A DNA stretch of 39,889 nt from Chthoniobacterales bacterium (GTDB taxonomy: Bacteria; Verrucomicrobiota; Verrucomicrobiia; Chthoniobacterales; UBA10450), in assembly GCA_003244145.1 (NCBI GenBank), contig QHBM01000072.1:6863-46751 (forward strand), in the 5' to 3' direction. Both the position numbers and the translations under genes were made by a program. Below, one piece after another: positions 11,676-39,889 of this stretch. Under the pieces are notes generated by a model that worked only from the letters and a program-made list of their open reading frames with translations, was not told the origin of the DNA and did no database searches. Each line of letters begins with the position of its first letter. The first letter of the stretch is position 1.

Positions 11676-11681
11676 AATTCA

Positions 11682-13046
11682 ATGGCGATCGCATCCACCA
11701 ATCCGGCCACCGGAGAAACGCTGAAGGAATTTAGCGCGCTCGATTCGAGGCAAATCGAAGAGAGACTCGCGAAGGCAGCGACCGCTTTCGAACAACACCG
11801 GCGCACAACATTCGCGCAACGCGCTCAGTGGCTGACCGCCGCTGCCGATCTCCTTGAGCGCGAAAAGGAGCAGATCGCGCGGATCATCACCCTGGAAATG
11901 GGAAAATTGCTGCGCGCGGCCAACGACGAAGTGATGAGGTGTGCCAGGGGTTGCCGCTTCTACGCGGAGAACGCGGAACGTTTCCTCGCGGATCAATCCG
12001 TCCCCACTGACGCCAGCCGAAGTTACATTCGTTATGAACCGATCGGCGCCGTGCTCGCGATCATGCCGTGGAATTTTCCTTTTTGGCAGGTGTTTCGATT
12101 TGCCGCGCCCGCGCTCATGGCGGGCAACGTCTGTCTGCTCAAACACGCCGCCAACGTTCCGCAATGCGCGCTCGCGATCGAAGATATTTTCCGCCGTGCC
12201 GGATTCGCAGATGGCGTTTTCCAAACGTTGTTCATCGAGACGGAGCAGACCCGGAAGGTGATCGACGATCCGCGCGTGAAAGCGGTTACGCTCACCGGGA
12301 GCGAGCGGGCCGGCAGCGAGGTCGCGAGCGCCGCCGCGCGTCAAGTCAAGAAGAGCGTTCTGGAGTTGGGCGGAAGCGATCCGTTTATCGTGATGCCGAG
12401 TGCCGATCTCAAAGCGGCGATCGAAACCGGGGTCACGGCGCGCACTCTCAATACCGGCCAATCGTGCATCGCGGCCAAGCGTTTCGTTCTCGCCGATCAA
12501 ATCTACGACCGCTTCGTTGCCGGATTTGTCGAACGCATGCAGTCGCTCAAAGTCGGAGATCCGCTCGACGCGGCCACGGAGATCGGGCCGCTCGCGACCG
12601 AAGCGATCTTGCGCGGTGTCGATCAACAAGTGCAGGACTCAATCGCGGCCGGCGCGAAATTGCTCACGGGCGGGAAACGAATTGAGCGGCCGGGATTCTT
12701 CTATGAGCCGACTGTGCTGGCGAATATTCCGCGCGATTCGCCCGCGTATCTCGAGGAGGTCTTCGGCCCCGTTGCGTCGTTCTTTCGCGTGGCGGATACG
12801 GCCGCAGCGATCAAGATCGCGAACGATAGCTCCTTCGGCCTGGGCGCGAGCGCGTGGACGAACGATGCGGGCGAGCAGGAACTTTTCGCTGCCGAGTTGG
12901 AGAGCGGAATGGTTTTCATTAACCGCATGGTGGTATCCGATCCGCGATTGCCTTTTGGTGGCGCCAAACGTTCCGGCTTCGGGCGCGAACTAGGCGCGGA
13001 AGGGATTCGCGAATTCGTAAATATCAAGTCAGTGTCGATCGCTTAG
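11682..13046 (+). CDS. Aldehyde dehydrogenase, succinate-semialdehyde dehydrogenase-like
   Basis: A 454-residue NAD(P)-dependent aldehyde dehydrogenase. It has the N-terminal NPATGE stretch, PWNFPFWQ, the general base Glu228 in LELGGSDPF, and the nucleophile Cys262 in GQSCIAAKR. The C-terminal PFGGAKRSGFGRELG is also standard. The short length and these motifs resemble the Sad/YneI branch of succinate-semialdehyde dehydrogenases, but related aldehydes are possible. It begins 6 bp after the transporter gene on the same strand, so it may belong to the same transcript; a functional link to ergothioneine is not established. The stop faces the gamma-glutamyltransferase gene across 40 bp. Confidence 0.9.
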   Translation: MAIASTNPATGETLKEFSALDSRQIEERLAKAATAFEQHRRTTFAQRAQWLTAAADLLEREKEQIARIITLEMGKLLRAANDEVMRCARGCRFYAENAERFLADQSVPTDASRSYIRYEPIGAVLAIMPWNFPFWQVFRFAAPALMAGNVCLLKHAANVPQCALAIEDIFRRAGFADGVFQTLFIETEQTRKVIDDPRVKAVTLTGSERAGSEVASAAARQVKKSVLELGGSDPFIVMPSADLKAAIETGVTARTLNTGQSCIAAKRFVLADQIYDRFVAGFVERMQSLKVGDPLDAATEIGPLATEAILRGVDQQVQDSIAAGAKLLTGGKRIERPGFFYEPTVLANIPRDSPAYLEEVFGPVASFFRVADTAAAIKIANDSSFGLGASAWTNDAGEQELFAAELESGMVFINRMVVSDPRLPFGGAKRSGFGRELGAEGIREFVNIKSVSIA

Positions 13047-13086
13047 AACACGATGAGGCCAAGATAAGCATCAAAGAGCGGAGCTT

Positions 13087-16790: not shown

Positions 16791-17342
16791 ATGACGGAGC
16801 ACGACCCAACCGCGGTCCTCGCCTACTGGCTCATCCCAGCCGAGCCCACGCGGAGTTTCTTCTCGTCCTTGATCAAAGAGCTCTCGGAACGATTTGACGC
16901 GCCACTCTTCGAACCCCACCTCACGATTTACTCGACCAGCAAAGGAGACCAAGACGCAGCCGAAGTTTTGGGACGCACATTTTCTGTGTGCGAACCGTTT
17001 CGCCTAACGGTTCGCGACATCGAACATTCCGACGAACTGACGAAGACGCTCTTCGTCCAATTCGAACCAGATCGCCGGTTATCGGAAGCAAGTGACGCGC
17101 TCCGGCGCGCGTCCGATCGCATTGACGAATACGAACTGAATCCGCATCTCAGTTTGATCTACCAGAAAATAGATCCCGCCGTGAAAAGCGAAGTAGCAAA
17201 CTCGATCACACTGCCTTTTGCCGAAGTGACCTTTGATCTGGCGAAAGCGATTGTCTCCCCGGCTCAAATCAAATCGCGCAAAGACGTGGAGGCGTGGCGC
17301 GTTCTGGCCGCGCGACCACTGCGACCGCATCAAGTTCAATGA
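16791..17342 (+). CDS. 2H phosphoesterase (2'-5' RNA ligase/CPDase-like)
   Basis: A 183-residue protein with the two HxT/S motifs that define the 2H phosphoesterase superfamily: His43-Leu-Thr45 in PHLTIYS and His119-Leu-Ser121 in NPHLSLIY. Enzymes of this fold open 2',3'-cyclic phosphates or related cyclic phosphates, and the CPDase-like branch of this length acts on small cyclic-phosphate substrates. The gene overlaps the rtcB start by ATGA, so the two are translationally coupled. This supports a role in RNA 2',3'-cyclic phosphate metabolism alongside RtcB, which uses the same ends. The precise substrate is inferred. No signal peptide. Confidence 0.85.
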   Translation: MTEHDPTAVLAYWLIPAEPTRSFFSSLIKELSERFDAPLFEPHLTIYSTSKGDQDAAEVLGRTFSVCEPFRLTVRDIEHSDELTKTLFVQFEPDRRLSEASDALRRASDRIDEYELNPHLSLIYQKIDPAVKSEVANSITLPFAEVTFDLAKAIVSPAQIKSRKDVEAWRVLAARPLRPHQVQ

Positions 17343-18508
17343 AAACGAAAATCTTCGGCGAACACGATGAGGCGACGATCGCGCAAATCGATCGCTGCGT
17401 GGCAGCGGGTGGCGAACGGGCGGTCTTGTGTGCCGATGGTCACAAGGGTTACGCCCAGCCGATCGGCGGCGTCATCGCCTACACGGACAAAATCTCGCTC
17501 TCCGGCGTGGGCTTCGACATCGCCTGCGGAAATCTCGCCATCCGCACCGACGCCACGCGCGCGCAAATCGCTCCGGCGATGGAAGAGATCATGAATGACG
17601 TGATGTGCGATATTTCGTTCGGCGTCGGCCGAACCACCCGGACGCGGATCGACCATGAATTGTTCGACGATCCCACCTGGGAAATCACGCCGCTGCGCGA
17701 ATTGAAGCAAAGCGCGGCCGCGCAACTCGGCACCGTCGGAGGCGGGAATCATTACGTCGATATTTTCGCCGATGAAGCGGACCGGATTTGGGTTGGCGTG
17801 CATTTTGGTTCGCGAGGATTAGGACACAAGACCGCGACTCATTTTCTGAAAGAGGCTGGCGGAAAAGATGGGATGGACGTTCCGCCAACCGTTGTTTCCG
17901 ATGCATCTCCCCTGGGAGAGGATTACATCGCCGCGATGAGACTGGCCGGGCGTTACGCTTATGCCGGTCGCGAAGCGGTGGCCCGTCACGTCGTGCGCGG
18001 GATTCTGCGGGCAAACGGGCTCGAAGAAGTGCACAATCACCACAACTTCGCCTGGCAGGAAGAACATGACGGCGTGCGCTACTGGGTGGTGCGGAAAGGC
18101 GCGACCCCGGCGTTTCCCGGCCAGAAAGGTTTTGTCGGCGGAAGCATGGGCGATGACGCGGTTATTATTGAAGGCGTGGATTCTCCGGCGTCACGCGAGG
18201 CGCTTTTCTCGACCGTGCACGGCACCGGACGGATCATGTCGCGAACAGCGGCGAAAGGCCGCTTCGTCAAAGTGGGCGGCAAACGCATTCGGAAGGAAGG
18301 ACTCGTTAGGCACGACGAGATGATGAAATGGATCGCGGAGAAGAACGTGGTGCTGCGCGGCGGCGATCTCGATGAGGCGCCGCAAGCGTATCGACGGTTG
18401 CCGAAGGTTCTCGCGGCCCACGCCGGCACGATCCGCGTTTTGCATACGCTCGCGCCGCTGGGGGTGGCGATGGCCGGCAAGGATATCGTCGATCCGTACA
18501 AAGACTGA
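17339..18508 (+). CDS. rtcB: RtcB family RNA-splicing ligase
   Basis: A 389-residue RtcB ligase, slightly shorter than the about 408-residue E. coli enzyme. Metal-site residues are clear: Asp60 and Cys63 in GVGFDIACGN, His138 in GGGNHYVD, His155 in HFGSRGLGH and His235 in HNHHNF. His294 in HGTGRIMSR matches the guanylylated histidine. RtcB joins a 3'-phosphate or 2',3'-cyclic-phosphate end to a 5'-OH end with GTP and Mn2+, repairing cleaved tRNA or other RNAs. No rtcA, rtcR or archease gene is in the window. Start ATG 17339 overlaps the 2H phosphoesterase stop; earlier in-frame starts lie inside that gene. Confidence 0.93.
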   Translation: MKTKIFGEHDEATIAQIDRCVAAGGERAVLCADGHKGYAQPIGGVIAYTDKISLSGVGFDIACGNLAIRTDATRAQIAPAMEEIMNDVMCDISFGVGRTTRTRIDHELFDDPTWEITPLRELKQSAAAQLGTVGGGNHYVDIFADEADRIWVGVHFGSRGLGHKTATHFLKEAGGKDGMDVPPTVVSDASPLGEDYIAAMRLAGRYAYAGREAVARHVVRGILRANGLEEVHNHHNFAWQEEHDGVRYWVVRKGATPAFPGQKGFVGGSMGDDAVIIEGVDSPASREALFSTVHGTGRIMSRTAAKGRFVKVGGKRIRKEGLVRHDEMMKWIAEKNVVLRGGDLDEAPQAYRRLPKVLAAHAGTIRVLHTLAPLGVAMAGKDIVDPYKD

Positions 18509-18563
18509 GGCGTCGCGCGCGATTAAGGATGACAGCTGTAAGCGCTGATCGTTAATTCGATCC

Positions 18564-20348
18564 GTGGACACGATTGTCGGCATCGATCTTGGGACGACCA
18601 ACTCGCTCATCGGCGTGATGGACGCCGGCTTTCCCATTCTGATCGCGGATGCGAACGGGGCGCGCCTGACGCCGTCGGTCGTTCATTTTCATCCTGGAAG
18701 TCCGCCGCTGGTTGGAAGACCGGCCGCGCGGATGCGCGCGCTCAAACCGGCGGAGACAATTTATTCCATCAAACGTTTCATCGGCCTGCGGGGAGATGAA
18801 CTGCGCGAAGGCGACGCCGACGTTTCGTACGCGGTCGAGCGGCAAGGCCGACAGCCAGTTCGCGTGAGCGCGAACGAACATTCGTACTCCGCCGAAGAAA
18901 TTTCGGCATTGATCCTGCAAAAGCTCAAAGCAGACGCTGAGCTCGCGCTCGGTCTCTCCGTCTCGCGAGCGGTCATCACGGTGCCAGCGTATTTCAACGA
19001 CGCGCAGCGCGGCGCGACGAAACGCGCCGGAGAGCTGGCGGGCTTCACCGTCGAGCGAATCGTGAACGAACCGACCGCCGCCGCGCTGGCCTACGGCCTC
19101 GACAAGTTGAAGAGCCGCTCGAAGATCGCCGTCTACGATTTGGGCGGAGGCACCTTCGACGTTTCGATCCTCGAATTAAACAACGGCGTTTTCGAAGTGC
19201 TCGCGACCAACGGCAACACGCGCCTCGGCGGCGACGACATCGATAACGCCATTATCGTTCACCTGCGCGAGAAAGGTTTTTCGGCGGACAAGCCGGAAGC
19301 CAGGGCGCGACTTCGCGAGGCCGCGACCGACGCAAAGCACCGACTCTCGACCTCGGACAGCGTGCAGATCGAAATCCCTTTTCTGGACGGCGCGCAAAAC
19401 TTTTCGCGCGTCCTCTCGCGAAACGAACTCGAAGGGTTGAGCCGGCCGATCATCGAACGGACTCGCGCTCATTGCCGCCGTTCTCTGGCCGATGCGAAGC
19501 TCGCGCCGTCGGAACTCGACGAAGTGATTCTGGTCGGCGGGATGACGCGGATGCCGCTCGTGCGAAAGATGGTCGCGGAGATATTCGGGCGCGAACCAAA
19601 CACATCGCAAAATCCCGACGAAGCGGTGGGGATCGGCGCCACGATTCAGGCCGGCATCTTGTCGGGTGCGGTGCGCGACGTGGTCCTGCTGGACGTTACG
19701 CCGCTATCGTTAGGCATCGAAACATTCGGCGGTTTGATGAACGTGATCATCCCGCGGAACTCGACAATCCCGATCAAGGCCGGCGAAATGTTTACGACCG
19801 CGGTGAACAACCAGCGATCGATGTCGATCAAGGTGCTCCAGGGCGAACGCGAAATGGCGCGCGACAACTGGCCGCTGGGTCAGTTCGAAATTGAATTTCA
19901 ACCCGCGCTCAAGGGCGTCGCTCGGGTGGGCGTGCAATTCGAGATCGATGCGAGCGGCATTCTCCACGTCCTCGCGCGCGATACGAAAACGGGCACGGAG
20001 AAAACGGTGGAGATCAACAGCGCGGTCGATGTTTCGGACGCAGCGGTGGAGGCGATGATTTCGGAGTCGCTCGACCACGCCTTCGACGACATGAGCGAAC
20101 GTGTCTGGACCGAAGCGAAGTTAAAGGCCGAGGAAATGTTGGGGGCCGTGGAAGCCGCGTTTGCGCAGGTCGGCGATTCAATTGACTCGGCGGAAAAGGA
20201 AATGATCCGCGAGGCGGCCGCGCGAGTGAGAGAGGCACTGGGGACAAATGACACGCGAAAACTACAAGCCGCGAATGCCGTGCTCGACGACGCGACGCAG
20301 GGACTCGCTGCGATCCTCGTGGAGAAAGCGATGCAGGCCGCGCGGTAA
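18564..20348 (+). CDS. Hsp70 family chaperone (DnaK paralogue)
   Basis: A 594-residue Hsp70. The ATPase domain has [12 protein letters not shown] at the N-terminus, [10 protein letters not shown], the linker-side [22 protein letters not shown] and VGGMTRMP. The substrate-binding domain starts after [12 protein letters not shown] and includes TAVNNQ and VLQGERE. It is shorter than housekeeping DnaK (about 640), because the C-terminal lid is reduced and the acidic tail is missing. This resembles HscA-like or other specialised paralogues, although no isc genes are nearby. The GTG 18564 start gives the usual short lead to GIDLGTT. It follows rtcB by 55 bp on the same strand; joint expression is possible. 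Confidence 0.92.
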
Positions 20349-27170: not shown

Positions 27171-27352
27171 CACTGCGCGCCGCGTGAAAAATTTCAGGCG
27201 GCGCAAAACCTATCTCGCTTATGTCGGCAGCGCTGGCAAGCTGAATGCCGCCTTTTCGTCCACGGTGATCGGTCGCACTCTGGTTCAAAGCTGGCGCGAT
27301 TGGCATCCGCGACGCTACCTTCCTCAGTCGTGCAGCGCTCTTACGCCAGGAA

Positions 27353-28672
27353 ATGAGCCTCTTCGGCCCGATCTCACGACCGCTCTTGAATGAGAAGACG
27401 GCGCCGGTGATCCGCCGCGCGCTCCAACGCGCCCGCATCGTGGGGAACTTCGCCGTCGTCCAGGTGGTGGTCCAGCTCGTCGGTTTTGCCAGCGGCATTC
27501 TCGTCATCCGCCGTCTCGAGCAAAACGAATACGCCTATTTCACGATAGCCAACACGATGCAGGGGACAATCAACGTGCTGGCCGACATGGGCATCAGTAT
27601 CGGGCTGATGTCGATCGGCGGCCGCGTCTGGCAAGACCGTTATCGCTTCGGCCAGCTCATCACGACCGCGAATAATTTCCGGCGCAGGCTCGGCGCGATC
27701 GCGGTTATTGTGGTCGTGCCCATCCTTTATTGGATGCTCACGCGCAACGGCGCATCCCCACTTTATGCAAGCGCCCTTATCGGCGCCATTCTGGCCGGGT
27801 TGCTCGCGCAATTCTCTCTCGGAGTTCTGGGCGTAGTGCCCCGATTGCGCTCCGACGTTTCGCAGATCCAAAAGATCGACTTCACGGGAGCTGTCGTGAG
27901 GTTTGTTGCCCTCGTCGGCTGCGCTCTCGTTTTTCTGAATGCCAGCCTGGCCGTCTTCGTAGGCTCGATCGTGTTTCTGTTTCAATACTGGATGCTGCGA
28001 AATTATGCGGCCCGGGTCATCGACTTGAACGCGCCGGAGAGCGCGGAGGACCGCTCAGCCATGATCGGCTTCGTGAAAAACCAGGCGCCGAACGCCATCT
28101 TTTTCTGCCTGCAAGGCCAGGTCACAATCTTTCTGATCAGTTTTTTTGGAACCCGCGCCACCGCCGTGGCCGAGGTCGGCGCTTTGGGTCGTCTGGCGGT
28201 GATCTTTACGGTCCTGGGCCAATTGCTCATCAACCTCTTCGTTCCGGCTTTCGCCCGCTGCCAAAATCCGGCGAGACTGCGTTTTCTCTACTTTGCGATT
28301 GTCGCCGGAGTCGCTGCCTTTTGCGCGGCCGTGATCGCCGCGGCGGCTTTTTTTCCGAACCAATTCCTCTTCGTCCTAGGCGGCAGGTATGCGCATTTGC
28401 AGCGGGAACTTCTCCTCATGGTCGCGGGCACGGTCATGATGATGCTGGCCGGGACGCTTTGGGTCCTGAACGCATCCAAAGCCTGGATCAAAGGATCGTG
28501 GATTTACATTCCTCTCACGATCGCCACCCAGATCGCGCTGATCCCCTGGACGGACTTCTCGAACGTGAGCCAGGTTCTGGTCTTCAACCTGATCTCGACC
28601 GTGCCGAGTCTCCTCCAAAACATTGTCCTGAGTTATCGCGGATTCCGCGGCTTTCAGCCGGCGTCGGAGTAG
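27353..28672 (+). CDS. Polysaccharide-flippase-like (Wzx/MATE fold) membrane protein
   Basis: A 439-residue multi-pass protein with about twelve hydrophobic segments. The N-terminal half starts with a basic, amphipathic region, and the first helix is followed by RRLEQNEYAYFTIANTMQG, a typical stretch of Wzx-type oligosaccharide flippases. It probably moves a lipid-linked glycan or another amphiphile across the inner membrane. No glycosyltransferases are around it, so the substrate is unknown. It lies upstream of the NRPS genes with 133 bp between the stop and the first likely NRPS start. A role as exporter for the peptide product is a possible but unproven alternative. Confidence 0.82.
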   Translation: MSLFGPISRPLLNEKTAPVIRRALQRARIVGNFAVVQVVVQLVGFASGILVIRRLEQNEYAYFTIANTMQGTINVLADMGISIGLMSIGGRVWQDRYRFGQLITTANNFRRRLGAIAVIVVVPILYWMLTRNGASPLYASALIGAILAGLLAQFSLGVLGVVPRLRSDVSQIQKIDFTGAVVRFVALVGCALVFLNASLAVFVGSIVFLFQYWMLRNYAARVIDLNAPESAEDRSAMIGFVKNQAPNAIFFCLQGQVTIFLISFFGTRATAVAEVGALGRLAVIFTVLGQLLINLFVPAFARCQNPARLRFLYFAIVAGVAAFCAAVIAAAAFFPNQFLFVLGGRYAHLQRELLLMVAGTVMMMLAGTLWVLNASKAWIKGSWIYIPLTIATQIALIPWTDFSNVSQVLVFNLISTVPSLLQNIVLSYRGFRGFQPASE

Positions 28673-28805
28673 CAACGGTGCGGGGCTCGAATCCGCGGCA
28701 CAGATGTCGCTATTCCAGTGCCGAGTTCCACTGCCACCGACGGCGCTAATACTGCTTTCTATGCCTTGGCGGGAAGTTGTAACTTTACGAACCGAAGAAA
28801 TCGCG

Positions 28806-30659
28806 ATGCTGATCGATAAAAAACAAACAAAGCTGTTGCCGGATCTCATTGCCGACCAGGCGAGACAGAATCCAGATGGAATCGCGCTGGTCGCGGCTTC
28901 CGAACGCCTGACGTACGGCGAGCTGGAGTTCCGCGCGACGCGGCTGGCCAATCACCTTCTGTCGCTCGGAGCAGGTCCTGAAGTTCTCATCGGGCTTGGC
29001 CTCGAACGCTCGCCCGAATTTGTTGTGGCCGCGCTCGCCATCATGAAATCTGGAGCCGCTTATCTTCCGATGGACCTCGCGCATCCGACGGAACGATTGC
29101 ACTTCATTATGAAGGACGCGGGCGTCCGCTTCCTTATCACCCAGGAGAAATTCGCAGACCGCTTCAAAGATTCCGGCGTCAGGACAGTCGTTCTTGATGG
29201 GGAGATAGCAGGAATCGAACAGCGACCAGTTCAGTCGCACTATGGAGATATCGATAGTCTGGCCTACGTGATTTACACTTCAGGTTCTACCGGGCAGCCA
29301 AAGGGCGTCGAGGTCACGCATCGAAATTTGGCTAACCTTATTTCCTGGCACGTGAAGGCATTTGGCGTGGACTCCTCGACGCGCGCGACCTTCCAGGCTG
29401 GTGTCGGCTTCGATGCGGCCGTATGGGAAATCTGGCCGTACCTGGCTACCGGCGCCTCGGTTTATTTGCCCGATGAGTCCACTCGCTTGTCGGCCGACGC
29501 GCTGCGCGACTGGCTAATTAGTCATGAAATCACGATCAGCTTTGTTCCGACCGCGATAGCGGAACAAATGATCGCCCGGCCCTGGCCCGGGGACAGCGCG
29601 CTGCGTTTTCTCCTGACGGGCGCGGACACTCTTCATCGTTACCCGTTGCCCGCTCTTCCGTTTTCCTTCGTCAATAATTACGGCCCGACCGAGTGCACCG
29701 TGGTGGCGACTTCCGGGACCATCCGCGCCGAAAACTTCGGAGATGGAGTGCCATCAATCGGACAGCCGATCGACAACGTTCGCATTCACATTCTCGACGA
29801 ACAACAGTGCGAAGTTCCACGAGGGGCGACGGGAGAGATTTACATCGGCGGGGCCGGAGTAGCGCGCGGTTATCGGAATCGCCCGGACCTCACCGCGGAA
29901 AGGTTTGTTCCAGATCCCTTCGGCGAGGAAGGTGGCCGCCTGTATCGGACCGGCGATCTCGGACGGTTTCTTGCGAATGGCGAGATCGCCTTTCTGGGAC
30001 GAAGGGACGACCAGATCAAAATCCGCGGTTATCGCATCGAGCTCAATGAGATCAATGCAGTTCTCCGCGAACATCCTGCCGTCCAGGCAAGTGTCGTAAT
30101 CGCACGGGAAGATTCTCCGGGAGACAAGCGACTCGTTGCTTACTTGATTGCCCGCGCTCATTCTCAGCGCGATGAGCAAAGTGTGCGTGAATCAATTCGT
30201 CGCCGCCTTCCAGATTACATGGAACCGACTACGTTCGTTTGGATGGAGTCGTTGCCGCTAACTCCAAATGGAAAAGTAGATCGGGCGCGTTTGCCGATTC
30301 CAAAAATGGAAGAGGGCGACCGGGAACGAGCTTTCATCGCTCCGCGGACGGAGATCGAGGAAACGCTCGCCGGAATTATCACCGAGGTTCTCAAAGTGCC
30401 GCGGGTCAGCGTGGACGACGATTTCTTTCACCTCGGCGCTCACTCACTGCTCGGCGCACAAATCATCGCCCGCGTCCGGAGCACGTTTGGAACGGAACTC
30501 AGATTGCTCGACGTTTTCGATGCTCCGACCGTGGCCGAGCTTTCCGTCAGGATCGAGCAGGCACTGGCCACTCAGCTTAACGCCATGACCGAAGCGGAAG
30601 TGGAAGCAGCGCTCGCCGCCTTCGACGAGCCGTTGGCTGCGAATACGAACAGCCGGTAA
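28806..30659 (+). CDS. NRPS adenylation-thiolation didomain, predicted Leu
   Basis: A 617-residue A-T protein without a condensation domain. The A domain (about 10-515) shows A3 YTSGSTGQPKG, A5 NNYGPTECT, A7 YRTGDLG, A8 RDDQIKIRGYRIE and A10 PNGKVDR. Reading the ten specificity positions by eye against GrsA gives DAWFLGNVVK, a published code for leucine. The T domain carries the phosphopantetheine Ser547 in LGAHSLLGAQ. It is either the loading module of the line or a separate carrier for tailoring. The P450 gene starts inside its stop codon (TAATG). The start is not certain: ATG 28761 and ATG 28704 also lie in frame. No clear promoter or strong ribosome site is visible in the upstream 133 bp. 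Confidence 0.9.
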   Translation: MLIDKKQTKLLPDLIADQARQNPDGIALVAASERLTYGELEFRATRLANHLLSLGAGPEVLIGLGLERSPEFVVAALAIMKSGAAYLPMDLAHPTERLHFIMKDAGVRFLITQEKFADRFKDSGVRTVVLDGEIAGIEQRPVQSHYGDIDSLAYVIYTSGSTGQPKGVEVTHRNLANLISWHVKAFGVDSSTRATFQAGVGFDAAVWEIWPYLATGASVYLPDESTRLSADALRDWLISHEITISFVPTAIAEQMIARPWPGDSALRFLLTGADTLHRYPLPALPFSFVNNYGPTECTVVATSGTIRAENFGDGVPSIGQPIDNVRIHILDEQQCEVPRGATGEIYIGGAGVARGYRNRPDLTAERFVPDPFGEEGGRLYRTGDLGRFLANGEIAFLGRRDDQIKIRGYRIELNEINAVLREHPAVQASVVIAREDSPGDKRLVAYLIARAHSQRDEQSVRESIRRRLPDYMEPTTFVWMESLPLTPNGKVDRARLPIPKMEEGDRERAFIAPRTEIEETLAGIITEVLKVPRVSVDDDFFHLGAHSLLGAQIIARVRSTFGTELRLLDVFDAPTVAELSVRIEQALATQLNAMTEAEVEAALAAFDEPLAANTNSR

Positions 30660-31888
30660 TGGCAGCGTCCGACTCCAGTCTAAGCCTCGTTCGGCTGCTT
30701 GAACCGGAGGTCCTGGCGAACCCTTATCCGCTCTACCATAAATTGCGTTCGGAAGATCCGGTGCATTGGGACCGGTTTCTCCACACCTGGGTCGTGACTC
30801 GTTACCCAGATGTCCTGAATGTCCTGCATTCTTTCTCCGCCGATCGCACGCCGACCCCGGAACAGTTGACGGCGATGGGCCTCTCGGGCCTCAACGCAAT
30901 CGCCCAGGTCATGGTGAAACAGATGCTGTTCATGGACGCGCCGGCTCACACTCGGTTGCGCGGCTTGGCTTCAGTAGCTTTCACGCCGCAACGGGTGCGG
31001 GTTTTGCGAGGGCACATCCAGGAAATCGCCGACAATCTCCTCGATCGGGTCCAGGCCCGCGGCGAGATGGATGTCATCGCGGATTTCGCGGCGCCCATGC
31101 CCGCGATTGTAACTGCCGAAATGCTCGGAGTTCCCACCGAAGATCACGTGAATTTGAAAAAATGGTCGGCCGATTTCGCGGAGATGCTGGGAAATTTTCA
31201 GCATAATCCCGACCGCATTCCGGCCGTGCTCGAAAGCACCAACAATCTGACCGACTACTTCCAGGCGGCGATTAGCAAAGCGCGCGAATATCCTCGGGAA
31301 GGATTGATTCACTCTTTCATGACGGCGGAGATCGATGGCGATCGGCTTACCGACGAAGAGATTGTCGCCAACTGCATTGTGACCATGGTCGGCGGGCAGG
31401 AAACGACTACGAATCTGATCGGCAACGGCCTGCTCACTCTGATGCGCAATTCCGAGCAGCTCGCTCAATTGCGAGATGATCCGAGTGTGATTTCTTCGGC
31501 GGTGGAGGAGCTTCTTAGATATGAAAGTCCCAGTCAGCACACTGGGCGAATCGCCCGGGAGGACGTGCAAATCGGCGACAAACAAATTCGCAAAGGACAG
31601 GCGGTGATGGCGATCATGGCCGCCGCGAACCGCGATCCCGGGCGCTTTCCCGATCCAGATCGGCTCATCCTTCAGCGTTCCGACAACAAGCACCTGGCCT
31701 TTGGATGGTCGAGTCACTTTTGTTTCGGTGCACCGCTTGCGCGAATGGAAGGACAAATTGCATTTGAAACGATTTTGCGGCGTCTGCCGCACTTGGAAGT
31801 TGCGCCGGGTCCGCTTACTTGGCGTAACAACTCGGGCTTGCGCGGATTGACAGCATTGCCGGTAACTTTCGAACCCACGCGGAACTGA
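30659..31888 (+). CDS. Cytochrome P450
   Basis: A 409-residue bacterial class I P450. The I-helix oxygen-binding segment is VGGQETTTN (Gly245-Gly246 to Thr249/Thr250), the K-helix ExxR is EELLRYESP, and the haem ligand Cys355 sits in FGWSSHFCFGAPLAR. The usual FxxGxHxCxG becomes F348-G-W-S351-S-H353-F-C355-F-G: the second Gly is a Ser. Electron partners (ferredoxin, reductase) are not in the window. Its position between an A-T didomain and the next NRPS module suggests oxidation of the amino acid while it is bound to the carrier, as NovI does on NovH-bound tyrosine, here probably leucine. Both gene ends overlap the neighbouring NRPS genes. Confidence 0.93.
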   Translation: MAASDSSLSLVRLLEPEVLANPYPLYHKLRSEDPVHWDRFLHTWVVTRYPDVLNVLHSFSADRTPTPEQLTAMGLSGLNAIAQVMVKQMLFMDAPAHTRLRGLASVAFTPQRVRVLRGHIQEIADNLLDRVQARGEMDVIADFAAPMPAIVTAEMLGVPTEDHVNLKKWSADFAEMLGNFQHNPDRIPAVLESTNNLTDYFQAAISKAREYPREGLIHSFMTAEIDGDRLTDEEIVANCIVTMVGGQETTTNLIGNGLLTLMRNSEQLAQLRDDPSVISSAVEELLRYESPSQHTGRIAREDVQIGDKQIRKGQAVMAIMAAANRDPGRFPDPDRLILQRSDNKHLAFGWSSHFCFGAPLARMEGQIAFETILRRLPHLEVAPGPLTWRNNSGLRGLTALPVTFEPTRN

Positions 31889-34800
31889 TGCAATCTGACG
31901 TAAGAGCGACGGATCGGCGGGCGCTTTTGAAGGAATATCTTCGCAAAGGACTGGTGCGCTGCGACGCAAAGGCCGCTGCCATCCCGCGGCGAAAGGGATC
32001 AGGTCCCGCCCCGCTGTCGTATGGGCAGGAGCAAGTCTGGCTGCACTCACAACTGGCGGGAAAGACTTTGATCTACAACGAGGCCGCGACCATTCATCGC
32101 CACGGCGCGCTGGATATCGTGGCCTTGGAACGCAGTTTTGCGGAAATCGTGCGTCGCCACGAGATGTGGCGGACAACCTTCGAGTGGGAGGGCGATCGTC
32201 TGGTCCAGATTGTCCGGCCGCCTCCAGCAAGCATCCGGATTCCCTGCGATGACCTGCGTGCGCTTCCGCGGGTGGAGGCGGAGCGGGAGGCAATTCGGCT
32301 GGCGACGGAAGACAGGCATCAGCCATTCGATCTCGCGCAAGGCCCGATGTATCGGCCGCGGCTCGTTCGCTTATGCGACGATGAACATCGTTTGTTCTTG
32401 ACTCTGCATCATATCATTTTCGACGGGGTTTCCCTTTATCGCGTCTTTCTGCCTGAGTTGCAGACTTTGTATGAGGCGTTTTCGCGCAACGAATCCGCCG
32501 CTCTAAGAGAGTTACCGATTCAATATGCCGATTACGCGGAATGGCAGCGGGGAACGGTCGAGCGCGCGCTGCCGAAGGAGATCCCTTACTGGAAGGCTCT
32601 TTTGGAGGACGTTCCAGTGCTCGATCTCATGAAAGGGCACCCGCGTCCCGCGGTTCAGACTTACACCGGCGAGATGGAGAAGCTGCAAATCTCGACTGAA
32701 GTCACCGCGGCGTTGAAGGCCCTGAGTCAGGAACAAGGGGTAACGCTCTTCATGACGATAGTCGCCGCCTTCAAGGTGCTCTTGCACGGTTACACCGGCG
32801 AAGAGGACATTGTGGTCGGCAGTGCGACCTGCGGCCGGAGCCATACAGAACTGGAAGGTCTTCTCGGGTTCTTTTTGAACACCGTTGTGATCCGATCCCG
32901 GTTTTCACGGGAGATGCCATTCACGGATTTGTTAGCGAAGGTAAAGGGGGCCACCTTGGAGTCACTAGCTCACGGCGCGGTTCCGTTCGAGCTGCTCGTG
33001 AATAGAATCGTACGAGTCCGCGACGCGAGCCGTCCACCGTTGTTTCAGGTGTTGATCTCCGTGGAACCTCCGCTCCCTCCGTTGAAGGAGGGCTGGGGCT
33101 TTTCGCAAATGGATGTCGAACCGGGCACCGCCAAGTTCGATCTCTATCTGGAGTTAGACGATCGCCCGGACGGTCTGATTGGCCGCTTCACTTACAACAC
33201 GGCTTTATTTGACCGGCAAACCATCCAGCTCTTGAAAGCGCGCTGGTTGAAGCTGCTCGATCGGATCGCCGTTTCGGCCACAGAACGGGTTTGTGATTTG
33301 ACCGCGGAGGTTTTCGAGCTCTCAAAAGGCCCGAGTGCGGAGGAGCGGCATCGCCTCCTGGTCGAATGGAACGAGACGCGCACGCTGTTTCCCGAGGAGC
33401 CAGTCCACGTTCTCATCGCCGCCCAGGCGCGCCTCACGCCCGGCGCGGTCGCACTCGTAGATGGCAATCGTCAGTTCACCTATGCCGAGCTCAATACCGC
33501 CGCCGACCGGTTAGCCGGCCATTTGCAGTCTCTCGGGGCCGCCACGGGCGAGATTATCGGGGTCTGTGTCGAGCGCTCGCTCGAGATGGTCGTCGCCGTC
33601 CTGGCGATCCTAAAAACCGGCGCCGCCTACGTTCCGCTGGATCCCGCTTTTCCCGCGGACCGTCTGGCGCTGATGGTTGAGGACACAGCGATGCCGCTCC
33701 TGATCACGCAGAAGCGAATGCTGTCGTCGCTGCCGGCATATGGGGGCAAAGTCGTGTGCGTCGATGACCTCGCGCTCAACGCGGCGCCCGCGAGATGGCG
33801 CCCGGTCCAAAGCTCGCTGGACGATCGCGCTTACGTGATCTTTACCTCCGGTTCCACTGGCCGGCCAAAAGGCGTCGAGATCACCCATCGCAACCTCACG
33901 AATTTCCTCTGCTCAATGCAGCGCACACCAGGCTTGCGGCGCGACGATGTGCTCCTCGCCGTCACCACGCTTTCCTTCGACATCGCCGGGTTGGAGCTTT
34001 TCCTGCCTTTGGTTACCGGGGCGCGCGTGGTTCTGGCCAGCCGCGAAACCGCGCAGGACGGGCAGGCGCTCGCCGACGAAATCGAGTGCCACGGCATCAC
34101 CATCATGCAGGCCACGCCGGTGACGTGGCGACTGCTTCTCGATGCGCCCTGGCACGGCAATCACCGGCTAAAAGCGCTGATCGGCGGCGAGCCTTGTCCT
34201 CTCGATTTAGCGGAGCGGCTCCTGGCGAAATGCGGCGAGCTCTGGAATCTGTACGGTCCCACCGAAACAACCATTTGGTCGACTGTGGAGAAGCTATCGC
34301 CGGGCGCCGCGCGCGTCACGATTGGCCGGCCAATCGCGAATACCGAAGTCTATATTGTCGATGACCGCCTCGATCCTGTCCCAATCGGCGAGGAGGGAGA
34401 ACTGCTCCTCGGCGGAGCCGGCGTGGCGCGCGGCTATCTAAATCGGCCGGAACTGACCGCGGAGAAATTCATCCCCCATCCCTTCAAGCCTGGCACCGGG
34501 GCGCGGCTTTACCGCACGGGAGACCTCGCGCGCTACTTGTCGGATGGCCGCATCGAGTGCCTGGGGCGCATCGATCGGCAGGTCAAGCTGCGCGGGTTTC
34601 GGTTGGAGCCCGGCGAGATCGAGTCCATCCTGCGCGAGCACCCGGCCATCCGCGAAGCGGTGGTCATCCTCCGGGACAGCGGCGTGGCGGAGGCGCGGCT
34701 GCTCGCCTACGTGGTGCCGGCGGCGAACCTCCCCGCCGATCAAGAGTTGCGCGCCCTTCTCCGGAGGAAATTGCCGGATTACATGGTGCCAGTGGCCTTC

Positions 34801-35196
34801 GTCCCGCTGACGCGCGTGCCGCTTACCGCCAACGGCAAGGTGGATCACCGCGCGCTGCCGGATCCCGATCCCAGCCGCTTGGCGCGGCAGAGCGGATTCG
34901 TCGCGCCTCGGAATGATCTCGAAAGGAAGATCGCGGAAGCTTGGAGCCAGGTGTTAAAGCTCGAACGCGTGGGCATTCACGATAATTTTTTCGAGATCGG
35001 CGGCCACTCGCTCGCGGCCATGCAAGCGCTGGCCCGTCTTCGCCACTCCTGGCCGACGGAGTTGAATCTCCGCCATTTTTTCGAGCATCCCACCATCGCC
35101 GGACTCGTGGCCACGATTCCTTCGGCGGAAATTCCGGCGCGGAACGGTGAAGGCGCATTGGTGGCCGCCGAAGCCCGCGAGGAGGGGGTGCTGTGA
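31888..35196 (+). CDS. NRPS module C-A-T, predicted Gly
   Basis: A 1102-residue module. A short charged N-terminal helix (about 8-20) may dock on the previous protein. The C domain (about 42-480) has SYGQEQVWL, RRHEMWRTTF and the catalytic HHIIFDG (His174, His175, Asp179). The A domain (about 510-1000) has FTSGSTGRPKG, LYGPTETT, YRTGDLARY and NGKVD. Its specificity code reads DILQIGLIWK, one change from the glycine code DILQLGLIWK. The T domain has Ser1041 in IGGHSLAAM. It should condense the residue from the first module with glycine. No epimerase, methyltransferase or thioesterase domain is present. ATG 31888 overlaps the P450 stop (TGATG); the stop overlaps the next start (GTGA). Confidence 0.93.
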   Translation: MQSDVRATDRRALLKEYLRKGLVRCDAKAAAIPRRKGSGPAPLSYGQEQVWLHSQLAGKTLIYNEAATIHRHGALDIVALERSFAEIVRRHEMWRTTFEWEGDRLVQIVRPPPASIRIPCDDLRALPRVEAEREAIRLATEDRHQPFDLAQGPMYRPRLVRLCDDEHRLFLTLHHIIFDGVSLYRVFLPELQTLYEAFSRNESAALRELPIQYADYAEWQRGTVERALPKEIPYWKALLEDVPVLDLMKGHPRPAVQTYTGEMEKLQISTEVTAALKALSQEQGVTLFMTIVAAFKVLLHGYTGEEDIVVGSATCGRSHTELEGLLGFFLNTVVIRSRFSREMPFTDLLAKVKGATLESLAHGAVPFELLVNRIVRVRDASRPPLFQVLISVEPPLPPLKEGWGFSQMDVEPGTAKFDLYLELDDRPDGLIGRFTYNTALFDRQTIQLLKARWLKLLDRIAVSATERVCDLTAEVFELSKGPSAEERHRLLVEWNETRTLFPEEPVHVLIAAQARLTPGAVALVDGNRQFTYAELNTAADRLAGHLQSLGAATGEIIGVCVERSLEMVVAVLAILKTGAAYVPLDPAFPADRLALMVEDTAMPLLITQKRMLSSLPAYGGKVVCVDDLALNAAPARWRPVQSSLDDRAYVIFTSGSTGRPKGVEITHRNLTNFLCSMQRTPGLRRDDVLLAVTTLSFDIAGLELFLPLVTGARVVLASRETAQDGQALADEIECHGITIMQATPVTWRLLLDAPWHGNHRLKALIGGEPCPLDLAERLLAKCGELWNLYGPTETTIWSTVEKLSPGAARVTIGRPIANTEVYIVDDRLDPVPIGEEGELLLGGAGVARGYLNRPELTAEKFIPHPFKPGTGARLYRTGDLARYLSDGRIECLGRIDRQVKLRGFRLEPGEIESILREHPAIREAVVILRDSGVAEARLLAYVVPAANLPADQELRALLRRKLPDYMVPVAFVPLTRVPLTANGKVDHRALPDPDPSRLARQSGFVAPRNDLERKIAEAWSQVLKLERVGIHDNFFEIGGHSLAAMQALARLRHSWPTELNLRHFFEHPTIAGLVATIPSAEIPARNGEGALVAAEAREEGVL

Positions 35197-38100
35197 ACGA
35201 GTTGCTCACCGAGCTGCGGCGCCGCGACATTACGATCTGGCGCGAGGGCGACAATCTGCGCTTCAGCGCGCCGCCGGGGGCCATGACGTCCGATCTGCGC
35301 GCCCAGCTCGCGGCGGCAAAGTCGATCTTGCTCGAAGGGCTGGCCGCTGAGGCCGGCGGCGTGGAGCCGATCCCGCGCGCGGCCCGCGACCGCGATCTCC
35401 CGCTCTCTTTCAGCCAGGAGCAACTATGGGTGCTCGATTGCCTGGAACCAGGCATGGCGATGTATAACGTCTCGTCTCTCTGGCGCCTGGCGGGAACGCT
35501 CGACGTTGCGGCGTTGGAGCGCAGCCTCGATGAAATTGCCCGCCGCCATGAGATCCTGCGCACGAATCTCGTCGCGGGCGAGGACGCGTACCCGGTTCAG
35601 GTCATCCATCCATTCACGACGCGCGCTCTGCCCGTCATCCCAGCCACGGCCGGGCAGCTCGGCGCCCTCGCGTCGCGAGAGTCGGGTCGCGGGTTCAATC
35701 TCGCGAGCGACACGCTCTGGCGGGCGACCCTCTTTCGAGTTACCGAGGAGGAGCACGCTCTCTGCGTCAGCTTTCACCACACCGTTTGCGACGCCTGGTC
35801 GCTGGGGGTTTTCAGCCGCGAGCTGGAGCTTCTCTATCCCGCCTTTCGCGACGGAGTTCCGAGCCCGTTGCCGGAGCTTCCCATTCAGTACGCCGACTTC
35901 GCGATCTGGCAACGAACCACCCTCTCCGAAACGGCGCTCGAACCGCACCTCGCCTACTGGCGACGGCAGCTTGCCGGCGAGCGCTCGCCGCTGACGCTTC
36001 CGGGCGACCGGCCCCGACTCGCCCGCCAGAGCTTTCGCGGCGCTATTTGCTCGCGCGAATTGCCCGCCCGTCTGACCGAAGCGCTCAGCCACCGCGGTCG
36101 CGAGCTGGAGGCCACGCCTTTCGTTCTGTTGCTGGCGGCGTTCAAGGCGCTCCTCGCCCGCCTGACCGGCGAGACGGATATCTGCGCCGGCTCGCCCGTT
36201 GCTCAACGAACGCAGGTCGAAACCGAAGGGCTGATCGGTCTCTTTCTGAATATGCTGGCGCTGCGCTCCGATCTTTCGGGCGACCCCGATTTTCGAGAGG
36301 TGCTGCGGCGCGTTCGCGCCACGGTGCTCGATGGCTTCGAGCATCAGGAAGTCTCCTTTGAGCGGCTGGTCGAGAAATTGTGTCCAAAACGCGAGCTGAG
36401 CTATAATCCGCTCTTTCAGGTCGCCTTCGTCCTTCTCCCGGCGAGTCTCCGCCCGCCCGCGCTGCCGAAGCTCAAGGTCGATCTCCTTCCCCTTCCCACT
36501 ACCACGGCCAAGTTCGACCTCACGCTTTTCATCGAAGAAGGAGCCGCTGGGATGCGCGTGTACGCCGAGTACAGCACGGACCAGTTCGACACCCCGACCA
36601 TTGATCGCTTGCTCGCGAGCTTCGAGCTCCTGTTGGAAAAGATCGCCGCCGCGCCGGAGACTTCGCTTTCACAACTCCCGGTGCTCCCGATCACGCAACC
36701 CCTTCCCCTCCCGCTCGAAGGGAACCCAACCGCGCGCACTCCCTATCCGCGCGAGGCAACGATCCAAGAAATCTTCGAGGAACAAGCGCGAAAAACGCCG
36801 TCGGCCATCGCAATAGTTTTTGGCGAGCTGCATCTGACTTACGACGAACTGAATCGGCGCGCCAACCAGCTCGCCCGGCGGCTGCGACAACTCGAGGTCG
36901 GCCGCGATGTTCCGGTCGGTGTCTGCATGAAGCGCTCAGTGGAGATGATTCTCGCGCTTCTGGCCGTTCTGAAAGCAGGCGGCGCCTACGTTCCGCTCGA
37001 TCCAAGTTACCCCGTGGAACGGCGGGCGTTGATGATGGAAGACACCGCGATGTCCATCCTTCTCACCGACGTGGCGGATCGAGCGGCGGGTCCTTCGATC
37101 AAACAGGTGATTTGCCTCGAGGAAGAGGACCTCACCGGCTTCGAAGAAACCAATCTCGCCACCGACGGGCGGGCCGAAGATTTGTGTTACATCATGTACA
37201 CCTCCGGCTCGACCGGGGCACCGAAAGGAGTGGCCGTTATGCACCGGGGCGTTGTCCGGCTGGTCAAGGAAACGAATTACGCATCGTTCGCCGGCGAAAC
37301 ATTTCTCCAACTCGCGCCGATCTCGTTTGACGCTTCGACATTCGAAATCTGGGGCGCGCTCTTGAATGGCGGGAAGCTGGTCGTGATGCCGCCCGCGCCA
37401 CCAACTCTGCAGGAAATCGGCAGCGCGATTCGCGAAAATGGTGTCACGACGTTGTGGCTTACCGCGGGATTGTTCAACGCGATGGTGGACGAACGTCTCG
37501 AGGACTTGCGGCCGCTCCGCCAATTGCTGGCGGGCGGCGATGTGCTGTCGGTTTCGCACGTGAGCAAGGCATTACGCGCTTTGACGGAGACCCGCCTCAT
37601 CAACGGTTACGGCCCGACGGAAAGCACGACGTTCGCGTGTTGCCATGCTATTCCGGCGAACGCGGAAGTCGGTGATTCGATTCCGATCGGCAAGCCGATC
37701 GCCAACACCACGGCCTACGTTTTGGACGCGCAACTTCATCCCGTCCCGGTCGGCGTGACGGGCGAATTGTTCATCGGCGGCGATGGTCTGGCGCGCGGCT
37801 ATTGGAAGAGTGCGGAGTTGACCGCGGAAAAATTTATCACCGCCGGCCTGGGTTCTCGACTTTACCGAACCGGTGATCTGGCGCGCTGGCGCGAAGATGG
37901 CGCGATCGATTTTATCGGACGCGTCGATACGCAAGTGAAGCTGCGTGGGTTCCGAATCGAATTGGGCGAAATCGAAAATGCGCTTCGGCGCCAACCCGAT
38001 GTCCGGGATTGCGCCGTCGCGATGCGTGAAGACAATCCGGGCGACAAGCAACTGGTGGCCTACGTCGTCCGCCAAGCAAACTCAGCGCACGAGTGGGAAC

Positions 38101-38588
38101 AGGCGCTGATCGTCGCGCTGAAGAAATCGTTGCCTGATTACATGGTCCCGTCGGCAATCGTCGCCGCACCCGCCTTGCCGCGAACAGCGAACGGTAAGCT
38201 CGACCGCAATGCCCTCCCCGCCCCGAACCGCTCCGCGAAAAAATCCAGGGACAACTTCGTGGCTCCGACAACGCCGCTCGAAAAGCAGGTCGCGGCCATC
38301 TGGCAGGAAGTGCTCGGTCTCGAGCGCGCCAGTTTGACGGACAATTTTTTTGATCTGGGCGGCGATTCGCTCTTATTGATGGCCGCTCACGCCGAGCTAA
38401 ACCGGGCACTCGACATGAACCTTCCAGTTACCGAGTTGTTCCAATTTGCGACCGTAAGTTCGCTCGCCAAACGTATCGGAGCCAAAGGTGGCGGAATTTC
38501 GGTATTTGCCGCCGATCGGGATCGGGCCAACCGGCAACGGGAAGCCATTGCCAGGCGGAAACGCGCCAAAGCGGGGGCGAATCGATGA
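35193..38588 (+). CDS. NRPS module docking-C-A-T, predicted Val
   Basis: A 1131-residue module. Residues 1-50 look like a TubC N-terminal docking domain (LLTELRRRDITIWREGDNLR, then a helix ending LLEGL). The C domain (about 70-500) has LSFSQEQLWVL, RRHEILRTNL and His195/His196 in HHTVCDAWS, where Ala replaces the usual Gly after Asp200. The A domain (about 530-1030) has YTSGSTGAPKG, GYGPTESTT, YRTGDLARW and NGKLD. Its specificity code reads DAFWLGGTFK, one change from a valine code. The T domain Ser1059 lies in LGGDSLLLM, and a basic C-terminal tail follows. GTG 35193 has a strong ribosome site (GAGGAGGGGG, 35179-35188). The stop overlaps the ketosynthase start (ATGA). Confidence 0.93.
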   Translation: MNELLTELRRRDITIWREGDNLRFSAPPGAMTSDLRAQLAAAKSILLEGLAAEAGGVEPIPRAARDRDLPLSFSQEQLWVLDCLEPGMAMYNVSSLWRLAGTLDVAALERSLDEIARRHEILRTNLVAGEDAYPVQVIHPFTTRALPVIPATAGQLGALASRESGRGFNLASDTLWRATLFRVTEEEHALCVSFHHTVCDAWSLGVFSRELELLYPAFRDGVPSPLPELPIQYADFAIWQRTTLSETALEPHLAYWRRQLAGERSPLTLPGDRPRLARQSFRGAICSRELPARLTEALSHRGRELEATPFVLLLAAFKALLARLTGETDICAGSPVAQRTQVETEGLIGLFLNMLALRSDLSGDPDFREVLRRVRATVLDGFEHQEVSFERLVEKLCPKRELSYNPLFQVAFVLLPASLRPPALPKLKVDLLPLPTTTAKFDLTLFIEEGAAGMRVYAEYSTDQFDTPTIDRLLASFELLLEKIAAAPETSLSQLPVLPITQPLPLPLEGNPTARTPYPREATIQEIFEEQARKTPSAIAIVFGELHLTYDELNRRANQLARRLRQLEVGRDVPVGVCMKRSVEMILALLAVLKAGGAYVPLDPSYPVERRALMMEDTAMSILLTDVADRAAGPSIKQVICLEEEDLTGFEETNLATDGRAEDLCYIMYTSGSTGAPKGVAVMHRGVVRLVKETNYASFAGETFLQLAPISFDASTFEIWGALLNGGKLVVMPPAPPTLQEIGSAIRENGVTTLWLTAGLFNAMVDERLEDLRPLRQLLAGGDVLSVSHVSKALRALTETRLINGYGPTESTTFACCHAIPANAEVGDSIPIGKPIANTTAYVLDAQLHPVPVGVTGELFIGGDGLARGYWKSAELTAEKFITAGLGSRLYRTGDLARWREDGAIDFIGRVDTQVKLRGFRIELGEIENALRRQPDVRDCAVAMREDNPGDKQLVAYVVRQANSAHEWEQALIVALKKSLPDYMVPSAIVAAPALPRTANGKLDRNALPAPNRSAKKSRDNFVAPTTPLEKQVAAIWQEVLGLERASLTDNFFDLGGDSLLLMAAHAELNRALDMNLPVTELFQFATVSSLAKRIGAKGGGISVFAADRDRANRQREAIARRKRAKAGANR

Positions 38589-39889
38589 GCGCGGGTGAAA
38601 GCGCGCGGATGGTCGATGGAATTGCCGTAATCGGCATGGCCGGCCGCTTTCCCGGCGCGCGCGATATCCCGCAATTTTGGGAAAACCTGAAGAACGGCAT
38701 CGAATCGATTACCGGCTTCGACGACGAGGATCTCCACGAAGGGGCCGCGAAAAACTCCCCTAACTACGTTCGGGCCCGGCCCATGCTCCAGGACGCCGAA
38801 ATGTTCGATCCCGCGTTCTTCGGCATGTATCCCAAGGAAGCCGAAGTCATGGATCCGCAGCAGCGCGTGTTTCTCGAATGCTGCTGGCAGGCGTTTGAGG
38901 ATGCGGGCTACGATCCACTCACTTACGACGGGCTGGCGGGCGTTTATGCGGGTTGCAGCACGAACACATATTTTCTCGAGCACCTTTGCCCGACGCGCGA
39001 TTTCGTGCAGGATTACGCGGCGTCGTACCCGGTGGGGAACTACCAAACGATGCTCGGGAACAATCGCGACTTCCTTGCCACGCGAGTATCGTACAAGCTG
39101 AATTTGAAGGGCCCGAGCTTCACCCTCCAGGCCGGTTGCGCCACATCGCTCGTGGCCATCTGCCAGGCCTGCCAAGGCCTGCTCACCTATCAAGCGGACA
39201 TGGCGTTGGCCGGTGGGGTATCGATCACATTCCCTCAAAATCGCGGCTATTTGTATCAGTCCGATGGGATCGTATCTCCGGACGGCCATTGCCGGGCTTT
39301 CGACGCCAAGGCGCAAGGGACCGTTTTCGGCGCGGGCGCTGGAGCGGTGCTCTTGAAGCGCTTCGAAGACGCCGTGGCGGATGGCGATCGTGTCCATGCG
39401 GTGATTCGTGGATTTGGCGTGAACAACGATGGTTCGGTAAAGGTCGGATATACCGCGCCGAGCGTGGATGGGCAGGCGCGAGTCGTCGCGATGGCGCACG
39501 CCAATGCGGGGGTCAACCCCGCGTCCATCACCTATGTCGAAGCGCACGGCACGGGCACTAGCCTGGGCGATCCGATCGAGATTGCGGCGCTGACCCAGGC
39601 TTTTCGCGCCGGAACCGAGGCTAAGCAATTCTGCGCGATCGGGACCGCCAAAACCAACATCGGCCATTTGGATGTCGCGTCCGGGGTAGCCGGGTTCATC
39701 AAGGCCGTGTTATCGCTTCGGCACAAGAAGCTTGTGCCCACGTTGCACTTCAAAACGCCCAACCCCCGGATCGATTTCGCGAACAGCCCGTTCTACGTAA
39801 ACACCGAGCTTCGGGAGTGGGAAACGGCGGGCATGCCGCGGCGCGCGGGGGTGAGCGCCTTCGGCATCGGCGGCACCAACGCGCACGTG
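38585..39889 (+). CDS. Polyketide synthase, ketosynthase domain (partial, continues right)
   Basis: The frame is open from ATG 38585 to the window end: 435 codons, almost all one KS domain. Motifs in order are IAVIGMAGRFPGA at the N-terminus, MDPQQRVFLE, the active-site Cys185, FDAKAQGTVFG, His321 in EAHGTGTSLGDP, His361 in NIGHLDVASG, and the final FGIGGTNAHV. Around Cys185 the sequence is QAGCATSLV instead of the usual DTACSSSLV; all three catalytic residues are present, so it should be active. It takes up the peptide from the valine module and extends it with an acyl unit. The acyltransferase, carrier and reductive domains lie beyond the edge and cannot be described. Confidence 0.95.
   Translation, partial: MSAGESARMVDGIAVIGMAGRFPGARDIPQFWENLKNGIESITGFDDEDLHEGAAKNSPNYVRARPMLQDAEMFDPAFFGMYPKEAEVMDPQQRVFLECCWQAFEDAGYDPLTYDGLAGVYAGCSTNTYFLEHLCPTRDFVQDYAASYPVGNYQTMLGNNRDFLATRVSYKLNLKGPSFTLQAGCATSLVAICQACQGLLTYQADMALAGGVSITFPQNRGYLYQSDGIVSPDGHCRAFDAKAQGTVFGAGAGAVLLKRFEDAVADGDRVHAVIRGFGVNNDGSVKVGYTAPSVDGQARVVAMAHANAGVNPASITYVEAHGTGTSLGDPIEIAALTQAFRAGTEAKQFCAIGTAKTNIGHLDVASGVAGFIKAVLSLRHKKLVPTLHFKTPNPRIDFANSPFYVNTELREWETAGMPRRAGVSAFGIGGTNAHV

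Follow-up and report, generated by a model that had tools for sequence, protein, structure and literature searches.

A recurrent leucine-type adenylation protein and cytochrome P450 pair at the start of a mosaic peptide synthetase line in a Chthoniobacterales bacterium

Which residue opens the peptide encoded at the right end of a Chthoniobacterales contig, and where does its assembly line end? The stretch analysed here (the window, 39,889 nucleotides) covers positions 6863–46751 of contig C98 (QHBM01000072.1, 46751 bases), part of a draft genome of 3.6 Mb and 88% completeness. Its right-hand part carries a modular nonribosomal peptide synthetase (NRPS), with adenylation (A), thiolation (carrier, T) and condensation (C) domains recognised by Pfam in consecutive genes. 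The line begins with a leucine-type A-T protein and a cytochrome P450 (P450). Each part belongs to a known kind; the recurrence of the starter pair is new, and it is of more interest than the claim of a polyketide (ketide) unit at the other end. No description of a Leu-specific starter pair was found in the literature searched, including the accessible part of PMC6497799 (Ktedonobacteria), with most subscription journals outside the search. Five genes made up the line:

28806–30659, + strand: A-T protein with A domain, A subdomain and T domain (AMP-binding, AMP-binding_C and PP-binding; Pfam), 80% identical in the sister locus G022 introduced below
30659–31888, + strand: cytochrome P450 (PF00067, 7e-29), the proposed oxidase of carrier-bound leucine
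31888–35196, + strand: C-A-T protein, with C at about 32008–33291 and A at about 33421–34839 (Pfam)
35193–38588, + strand: C-A-T protein with a TubC_N docking domain at about 35199–35336, C at about 35394–36686 and A at about 36774–38198 (Pfam)
38585–39889, + strand: ketosynthase (KS; PF00109, 2e-69; PF02801, 5e-43), cut by the contig end and uncertain in its join to the rest

Successive genes overlapped by 1–4 bases and ran in one direction throughout, and the Pfam domains stood in the order given by an earlier sequence-only reading of the window, which was borne out in this respect. The contig end coincided with the right edge of the window, within the KS gene. An earlier possible start codon of the A-T gene lay at 28704. 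By eye, the serines of the carrier domains were present, the heme-binding, ExxR and I-helix motifs of the P450 were intact, and the KS had its Cys and two His motifs. Among the NCBIfam models listed, only the general AA-adenyl-dom scored above its cut-off.

The A domain codes were read with a MAFFT alignment and with GrsA landmarks. They were DAWFLGNVVK in the A-T protein, DILQLGLIWK in the first C-A-T protein and DAFWLGGTFK in the TubC_N-C-A-T protein, presumably specifying Leu, Gly and Val, respectively, by the known code table. None of the three codes was found in the papers searched for them. Position 5 of the second code, previously read as I, was L in our alignment and varied with gap placement. 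The nearest solved chains lend partial independent backing to the first two calls. The Leu-type A domain scored 465 bits with 8hlk (microcystin synthetase B, McyB), compared with 342 and 280 bits for two LgrA domains, and the Gly-type A domain scored 437 bits with 5u89, the top single stretch among the matches listed; the substrate of McyB is Leu and that of the 5u89 enzyme is Gly. The chains closest to the Val-type A domain gave no decision on its substrate.

A profile of seven P450s, run against a named genome collection, yielded 142 relatives, the best 80 of which were kept. In 63 distinct loci (66 entries less three duplicates; 58 from the best 80, plus the window and four from relatives), the P450 was preceded on its own strand by an A-T protein, within 250 bases in 62 of them; in L066, a C gene stood between the two. 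This number is a lower bound, as 22 of the 80 P450 loci fell outside the pair filter through open reading frame picking, the length limit, contig edges or other layouts (L111, for instance, was missed with an A-T protein over the length limit). The A-T code was exactly DAWFLGNVVK in 56 of the 63 loci, differed at one position in six and was cut in one. Distances among the A domains and among the P450s were correlated (r = 0.74, n = 60), a value reached in 0 of 2000 permutations, and mean identity among the paired loci was 70% for the P450 and 54% for the A domain. An A-T protein with an adjacent, co-conserved P450 is the arrangement of an aminoacyl-carrier hydroxylation system. By record titles, mostly of metagenome-assembled genomes, the pair recurred with little change in Acidobacteria, Verrucomicrobia, Rokubacteria, Chloroflexi, Actinobacteria and one planctomycete. 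The label of one record titled Akkermansia muciniphila (L141) is doubtful, since its C domain is near that of the Verrucomicrobiota record L129.

What followed the pair differed among the 63 lines. A complete C-A-T module with a thioesterase (TE) stood behind or fused to the P450 in 19, a fused P450-A-T-TE was found in seven, C-T-TE in two and a TE alone in two; nothing was recognised in ten, and the others had C-A-T or C-protein parts. Lines of the type A-T/P450/TE (slashes separate genes), free of any C domain, were L111, L140 and L133, the TE of L133 being in two frames. The P450 was fused to the next module in 17 lines. Such fusions to a following C-A-T were observed in the Acidobacteria records L068, L070, L075, L079, L080, L081, L083, L092, L103 and L130. 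A bacterial sugar transferase family was encoded near the pair in 14 of the 80 loci, and in Acidobacteria records with a fused P450, the pair may sit in polysaccharide loci.

Because the pair is constant, the P450 would oxidise the Leu on the A-T protein, and because it is the A-T protein's constant partner, the first residue would be an oxidised Leu. The core thus probably reads (oxidised Leu)-Gly-Val. In the Leu-Gly-Val-ketide core of the sequence-only reading, the three codes stand, the first residue changes to oxidised Leu and the ketide rests on one join, discussed below. By analogy with described systems, beta-hydroxylation is the most likely oxidation. According to the accessible part of PMC9321520, the P450s Sky32 (skyllamycin) and Tem23 (telomycin) hydroxylate carrier-bound Leu; these belong to large actinobacterial lines, and none such was recognised among the 60 solved proteins listed as related to the window P450. 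For polyoxypeptin, the available text of PMC3943440 proposes that PlyC, PlyD, PlyQ and PlyR convert carrier-bound Leu to 3-hydroxyleucine. The set of A domain, carrier, P450 and TE is alike in both systems, the TEs being free in polyoxypeptin. There, however, each domain is a protein of its own, and the proposal includes release of the amino acid and its renewed activation, whereas in the window, A and T form one protein that is first in the line.

A tree built from 93 C domains placed the first C of the window in a clade of 66 (support 100/100) that included 33 of the 39 C domains standing first behind A-T/P450 pairs; the second C in the window and the terminal one described below both fell outside it. 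Given this grouping and the gene order, it is plausible that the A-T protein passes its Leu to the first C. A lipid-starter role for this domain was rejected: its similarity to the lipid-starter C of CDA was only 1e-11, compared with 2e-73 for Txo2, 2e-70 for Txo1 and 9e-61 for TycC.

Outside the window, the same genome contained one further C domain and one TE match, both on contig C8. Read on the reverse strand, C8 starts inside a T domain and continues with a C, an A region without core motifs (the dead A), a T and a TE. The nearest named relative, Spartobacteria bacterium palsa_1379 of the same genus, carries a sister line on PMSN01000022.1 (G022). The starting T piece of C8 was orthologous to the T of the G022 C-A-T protein (75% identity over 71 codons), the terminal enzyme was 79% identical to that of G022, which directly follows the G022 C-A-T gene, and the match of the C8 DNA to G022 took in the T piece, the terminal gene and the 2.8 kb that follow. 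On account of these matches to the G022 locus, C8 is tied to the window's line and would carry its end, including a TE for release with an orthologue in the sister operon. The nucleophile of this TE is a Cys in the motif GGFCVGG, which has the GxCxG pattern of ObiF-type TEs.

Identity between the terminal enzymes of C8 and G022 was 87% for C, 79% for the dead A, 96% for T and 77% for TE, with ratios of nonsynonymous to synonymous substitution rates (dN/dS) of 0.092, 0.148, 0.026 and 0.146, respectively; these ratios are rough, as the synonymous distances were 0.68–1.37. The value for the dead A resembles those of its neighbours; the dead A is therefore still constrained, and its decay is unlikely. 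Structure models of this region and of the 439-residue protein mentioned below had mean predicted local distance difference test scores of 45.3 and 36.5, respectively, and were not used. In a second relative, G019 (L057; positions 9491–13819, + strand), the terminal C and A were gone, the second T read GGNA instead of GGNS and the TE was kept, so that the last module is partly lost.

The G022 line has the layout Leu A-T/P450/C-A(Val)-T/C-A(dead)-T-TE. It shares the A-T protein, P450, Val A domain and terminal enzyme with the window line but is shorter, being without the Gly module, docking domain and KS. The lines of G022, G039 and G019, whose P450s were 90%, 84% and 80% identical to that of the window, each have a single C-A-T in place of the window's two. 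The single C of G022 was 66% identical to the first C of the window, and its A core was 82% identical to the second (Val) A, while the cross-comparisons (window Gly A core with G022 A, window second C with G022 C) gave 39%. Correspondingly, the blastn match to G022 covered 27284–33708 and resumed at 36733–38371, with one weak piece at 34321–34622 (66%). The first C was less similar to G022 than its neighbours were (80–90%), and in the tree it branched outside the three sisters (95/97). An exchange thus seems to have affected the region between the P450/C border and the C/A border of the Val module; alternatively, the first C may have changed faster. Gain in the window lineage is the simpler reading, as the short form is shared by three relatives. 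By sequence comparison, the window line is mosaic, with A(Gly)-T/docking-C and T-KS as its additional pieces, and it would derive from a shorter line of the sister type (oxidised Leu-Val) through exchange of module pieces.

A donor of the Gly/docking-C block or the KS was not found in 213 genomes of the order (own genome excluded), where the best identities were 58% for the Gly A, 54% for the docking-C and 63% for the KS. GC content at third codon positions was 0.71–0.90 from the Gly A to the second C and 0.63–0.68 in the A-T, P450 and first C, but it was also 0.76 in the upstream gene, and base composition was dropped as a mark of foreign origin. Recombination is a main force in such lines. 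In the accessible part of the survey PMC8097286, breakpoints are reported to fall mostly within A cores and to leave the interfaces between domains intact; the exchange borders in the window differ from these. The window and its sisters form a natural case of module gain, which is relevant to synthetase engineering.

The ketide depends on a short sequence within the last T domain:

38341–38363, + strand: a stretch of 23 bases with which contig C8 (reverse strand) also begins, without a mismatch, and where the KS branch starts

Here, the window leaves the sister locus while C8 continues along it. The matches of C98 and C8 to G022 meet with an overlap of about 30 bases, that of the window stopping at 38371. 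A KS after an NRPS module, the mark of a hybrid NRPS–polyketide synthase (PKS) line, is present in the contig, at a join (38363/38364) that falls, to the base, where C8 starts, which makes the ketide uncertain. The last approximately 1.5 kb (38364–39889) could be an assembly error or a strain variant, in which case the Val A domain runs into the T of C8 and there is no ketide; we consider this to be evenly balanced. The 23-mer occurs only twice in the assembly, in the window and at the start of C8, which then follows the sister locus. A KS was seen in none of the 62 other paired loci (flanks of up to 10 kb; profile built from this one KS), and no PKS-type acyltransferase (AT) or ketoreductase (KR) was found elsewhere in the assembly. 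Searches of the own genome, an incomplete assembly with a contig that ends inside the KS gene, gave six KS matches (that of the window and five in frames of 394–485 residues, FabF-type by length), a single AT in a FabD-like frame of 333 residues and eight KR frames of 164–816 residues, none of PKS size. On the other hand, at 88% completeness missing PKS parts are unsurprising, and the same contig contains another non-sister block, A(Gly)-T/docking-C, so that the line differs from its sister in any case; no direct 18-base repeat was found in the region of that block. The frame and the 4-base overlap to the KS gene are intact, though a join inside the T motif would also keep the frame. A second real insertion, with missing sequence between the KS and C8, and a wrong branch or variant are thus about equally probable.

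For the line as a whole, the simplest reading is collinear use of the modules, and we regard it as narrowly probable. The A-T protein would activate Leu and keep it on its own T domain, where the P450 would oxidise it, most likely by beta-hydroxylation, a position that we infer. The first C would transfer the oxidised Leu to Gly, and the second C, docked through TubC_N, would pass the chain to Val, perhaps followed by a polyketide unit. The C8 enzyme, with its C, A region without core motifs, intact T and Cys TE, would end the line. The chemistry, the order of use and the loading of the last T are predicted throughout.

Several observations weigh against the collinear reading. The T of the last module had the lowest dN/dS of nine segments, and its C the third lowest, after the P450 (0.063); the conserved last module does something that a collinear explanation fails to supply. 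G023 and L115 have the layout A-T/P450/C-T-TE with a single A domain, which simple collinearity does not explain. Of the 39 C domains that come first behind the pair, six (L058, L100, L115, L126, L129 and L141) were outside the clade of 66, and this clade also held C domains from further downstream (e.g., L082, L097 and L108) and second C domains of Thermogemmatispora. The best solved relative of the window P450 was the BioI enzyme, with no special closeness to an amino-acid hydroxylase, and among the 60 relatives listed of 538 no amino-acid hydroxylase was recognised. The window has terminal motifs that resemble a docking pair. Across the set, the acidic C-terminal motif was found in 30 of the 63 A-T proteins, including five of the 20 with no C recognised behind them, and among C proteins, a strict pattern for the N-terminal motif matched 14 of 33 in first position and 15 of 49 others. 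As these counts fail to discriminate, the motifs were rejected as proof of the hand-over. For that reason, and because a complete C-A-T-TE occurred in 19 of the 63 lines and not in most, we lowered our estimate of the collinear reading and raised that of the following alternative.

In this alternative, the oxidised Leu is moved to the T of the last module, with its dead A, and becomes the last residue, whereupon the Cys TE closes a beta-lactone on its hydroxyl. The terminal A without core motifs, next to a strongly conserved C and T, has the features of a module complemented in trans. Terminal modules without an A domain stood beside the pair in G023, G060, G073 and L115 and faced it in L101, L104, L113 and L117; the C-T-TE lines of G023 and L115 fit this loading better than they fit collinear use. 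Stand-alone A-T proteins that serve modules with an absent or dead A have been described, as in SyrB1/SyrE (syringomycin) and alb04 (albicidin synthetase), where they stand beside a terminal or internal module without a working A (PMC8949500). The window differs from these systems in that the partner is a P450 rather than a halogenase and in that there is no insert between A and T. A TE with a GxCxG nucleophile, like that on C8, forms a beta-lactone in obafluorin ObiF (available part of PMC6668435), and according to the accessible text of PMC11298585, the TEs of ObiF and SulM both have a Cys. The text available in PMC6668435 places the hydroxy amino acid of ObiF on the carrier adjoining the TE, a placement that is hypothetical for the C8 enzyme. 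If true, loading from the stand-alone A-T protein would put oxidised Leu next to the Cys TE, in the beta-lactone arrangement of ObiF. The nucleophile was Cys in all seven lines first compared, but among the 36 lines with a TE in reach, it was Cys in 13, Ser in 22 and unread in one. Moreover, the first C would need another donor, and it is unlike the lipid-starter C of CDA. Because in 19 of the 63 lines the P450 is directly followed by, or fused to, a complete C-A-T-TE, with no A-less module for the Leu to load, and because G019 has lost its last C and A and reads GGNA instead of GGNS in its second T, yet keeps the pair and the TE, we rate this alternative below the collinear reading and consider it unlikely.

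It is improbable that the P450 acts on the finished peptide or on a precursor and is only a fellow traveller of the A-T gene. The substrates of its solved relatives are of many kinds, but in the 63 loci it stands behind the A-T gene although the genes farther downstream differ greatly, TE-only lines being among them, and in 17 of these loci it is fused to the next module.

We hold as quite improbable a broader proposal that combines parts of these readings, in which the A-T protein, P450 and following C would form an undescribed portable starter cassette for oxidised Leu in six phyla, feeding a line that has grown by exchange, with the same Leu also delivered to the module with the dead A and closed to a beta-lactone by the Cys TE.

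Upstream of the line, one gene was shared with the sister locus:

27353–28672, + strand: helix-rich protein of 439 residues, transporter-like by look, with an 89% identical gene at the same place before the A-T gene in G022

This protein had no Pfam match at E 0.05, and no counterpart was seen in the other loci compared. Farther upstream in the window, positions 7071–11675 (+ strand) encoded, by Pfam, an EgtB-like protein that combines DinB_2 and sulfatase-modifying-factor domains and an EgtD-like, histidine-specific methyltransferase; an ABC ATPase and a fusion of OpuAC with a permease came next. The group resembles ergothioneine synthesis beside an EgtUV-like importer. At 16791–20348 (+ strand), a 2'-5' RNA ligase/cyclic phosphodiesterase-like gene, an RtcB-type RNA ligase and an Hsp70 stood in a row.

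For the bacteria that carry the starter pair, a single in vitro assay on the A-T protein and its P450 would establish which residue comes first in dozens of lines that are still uncharacterised.

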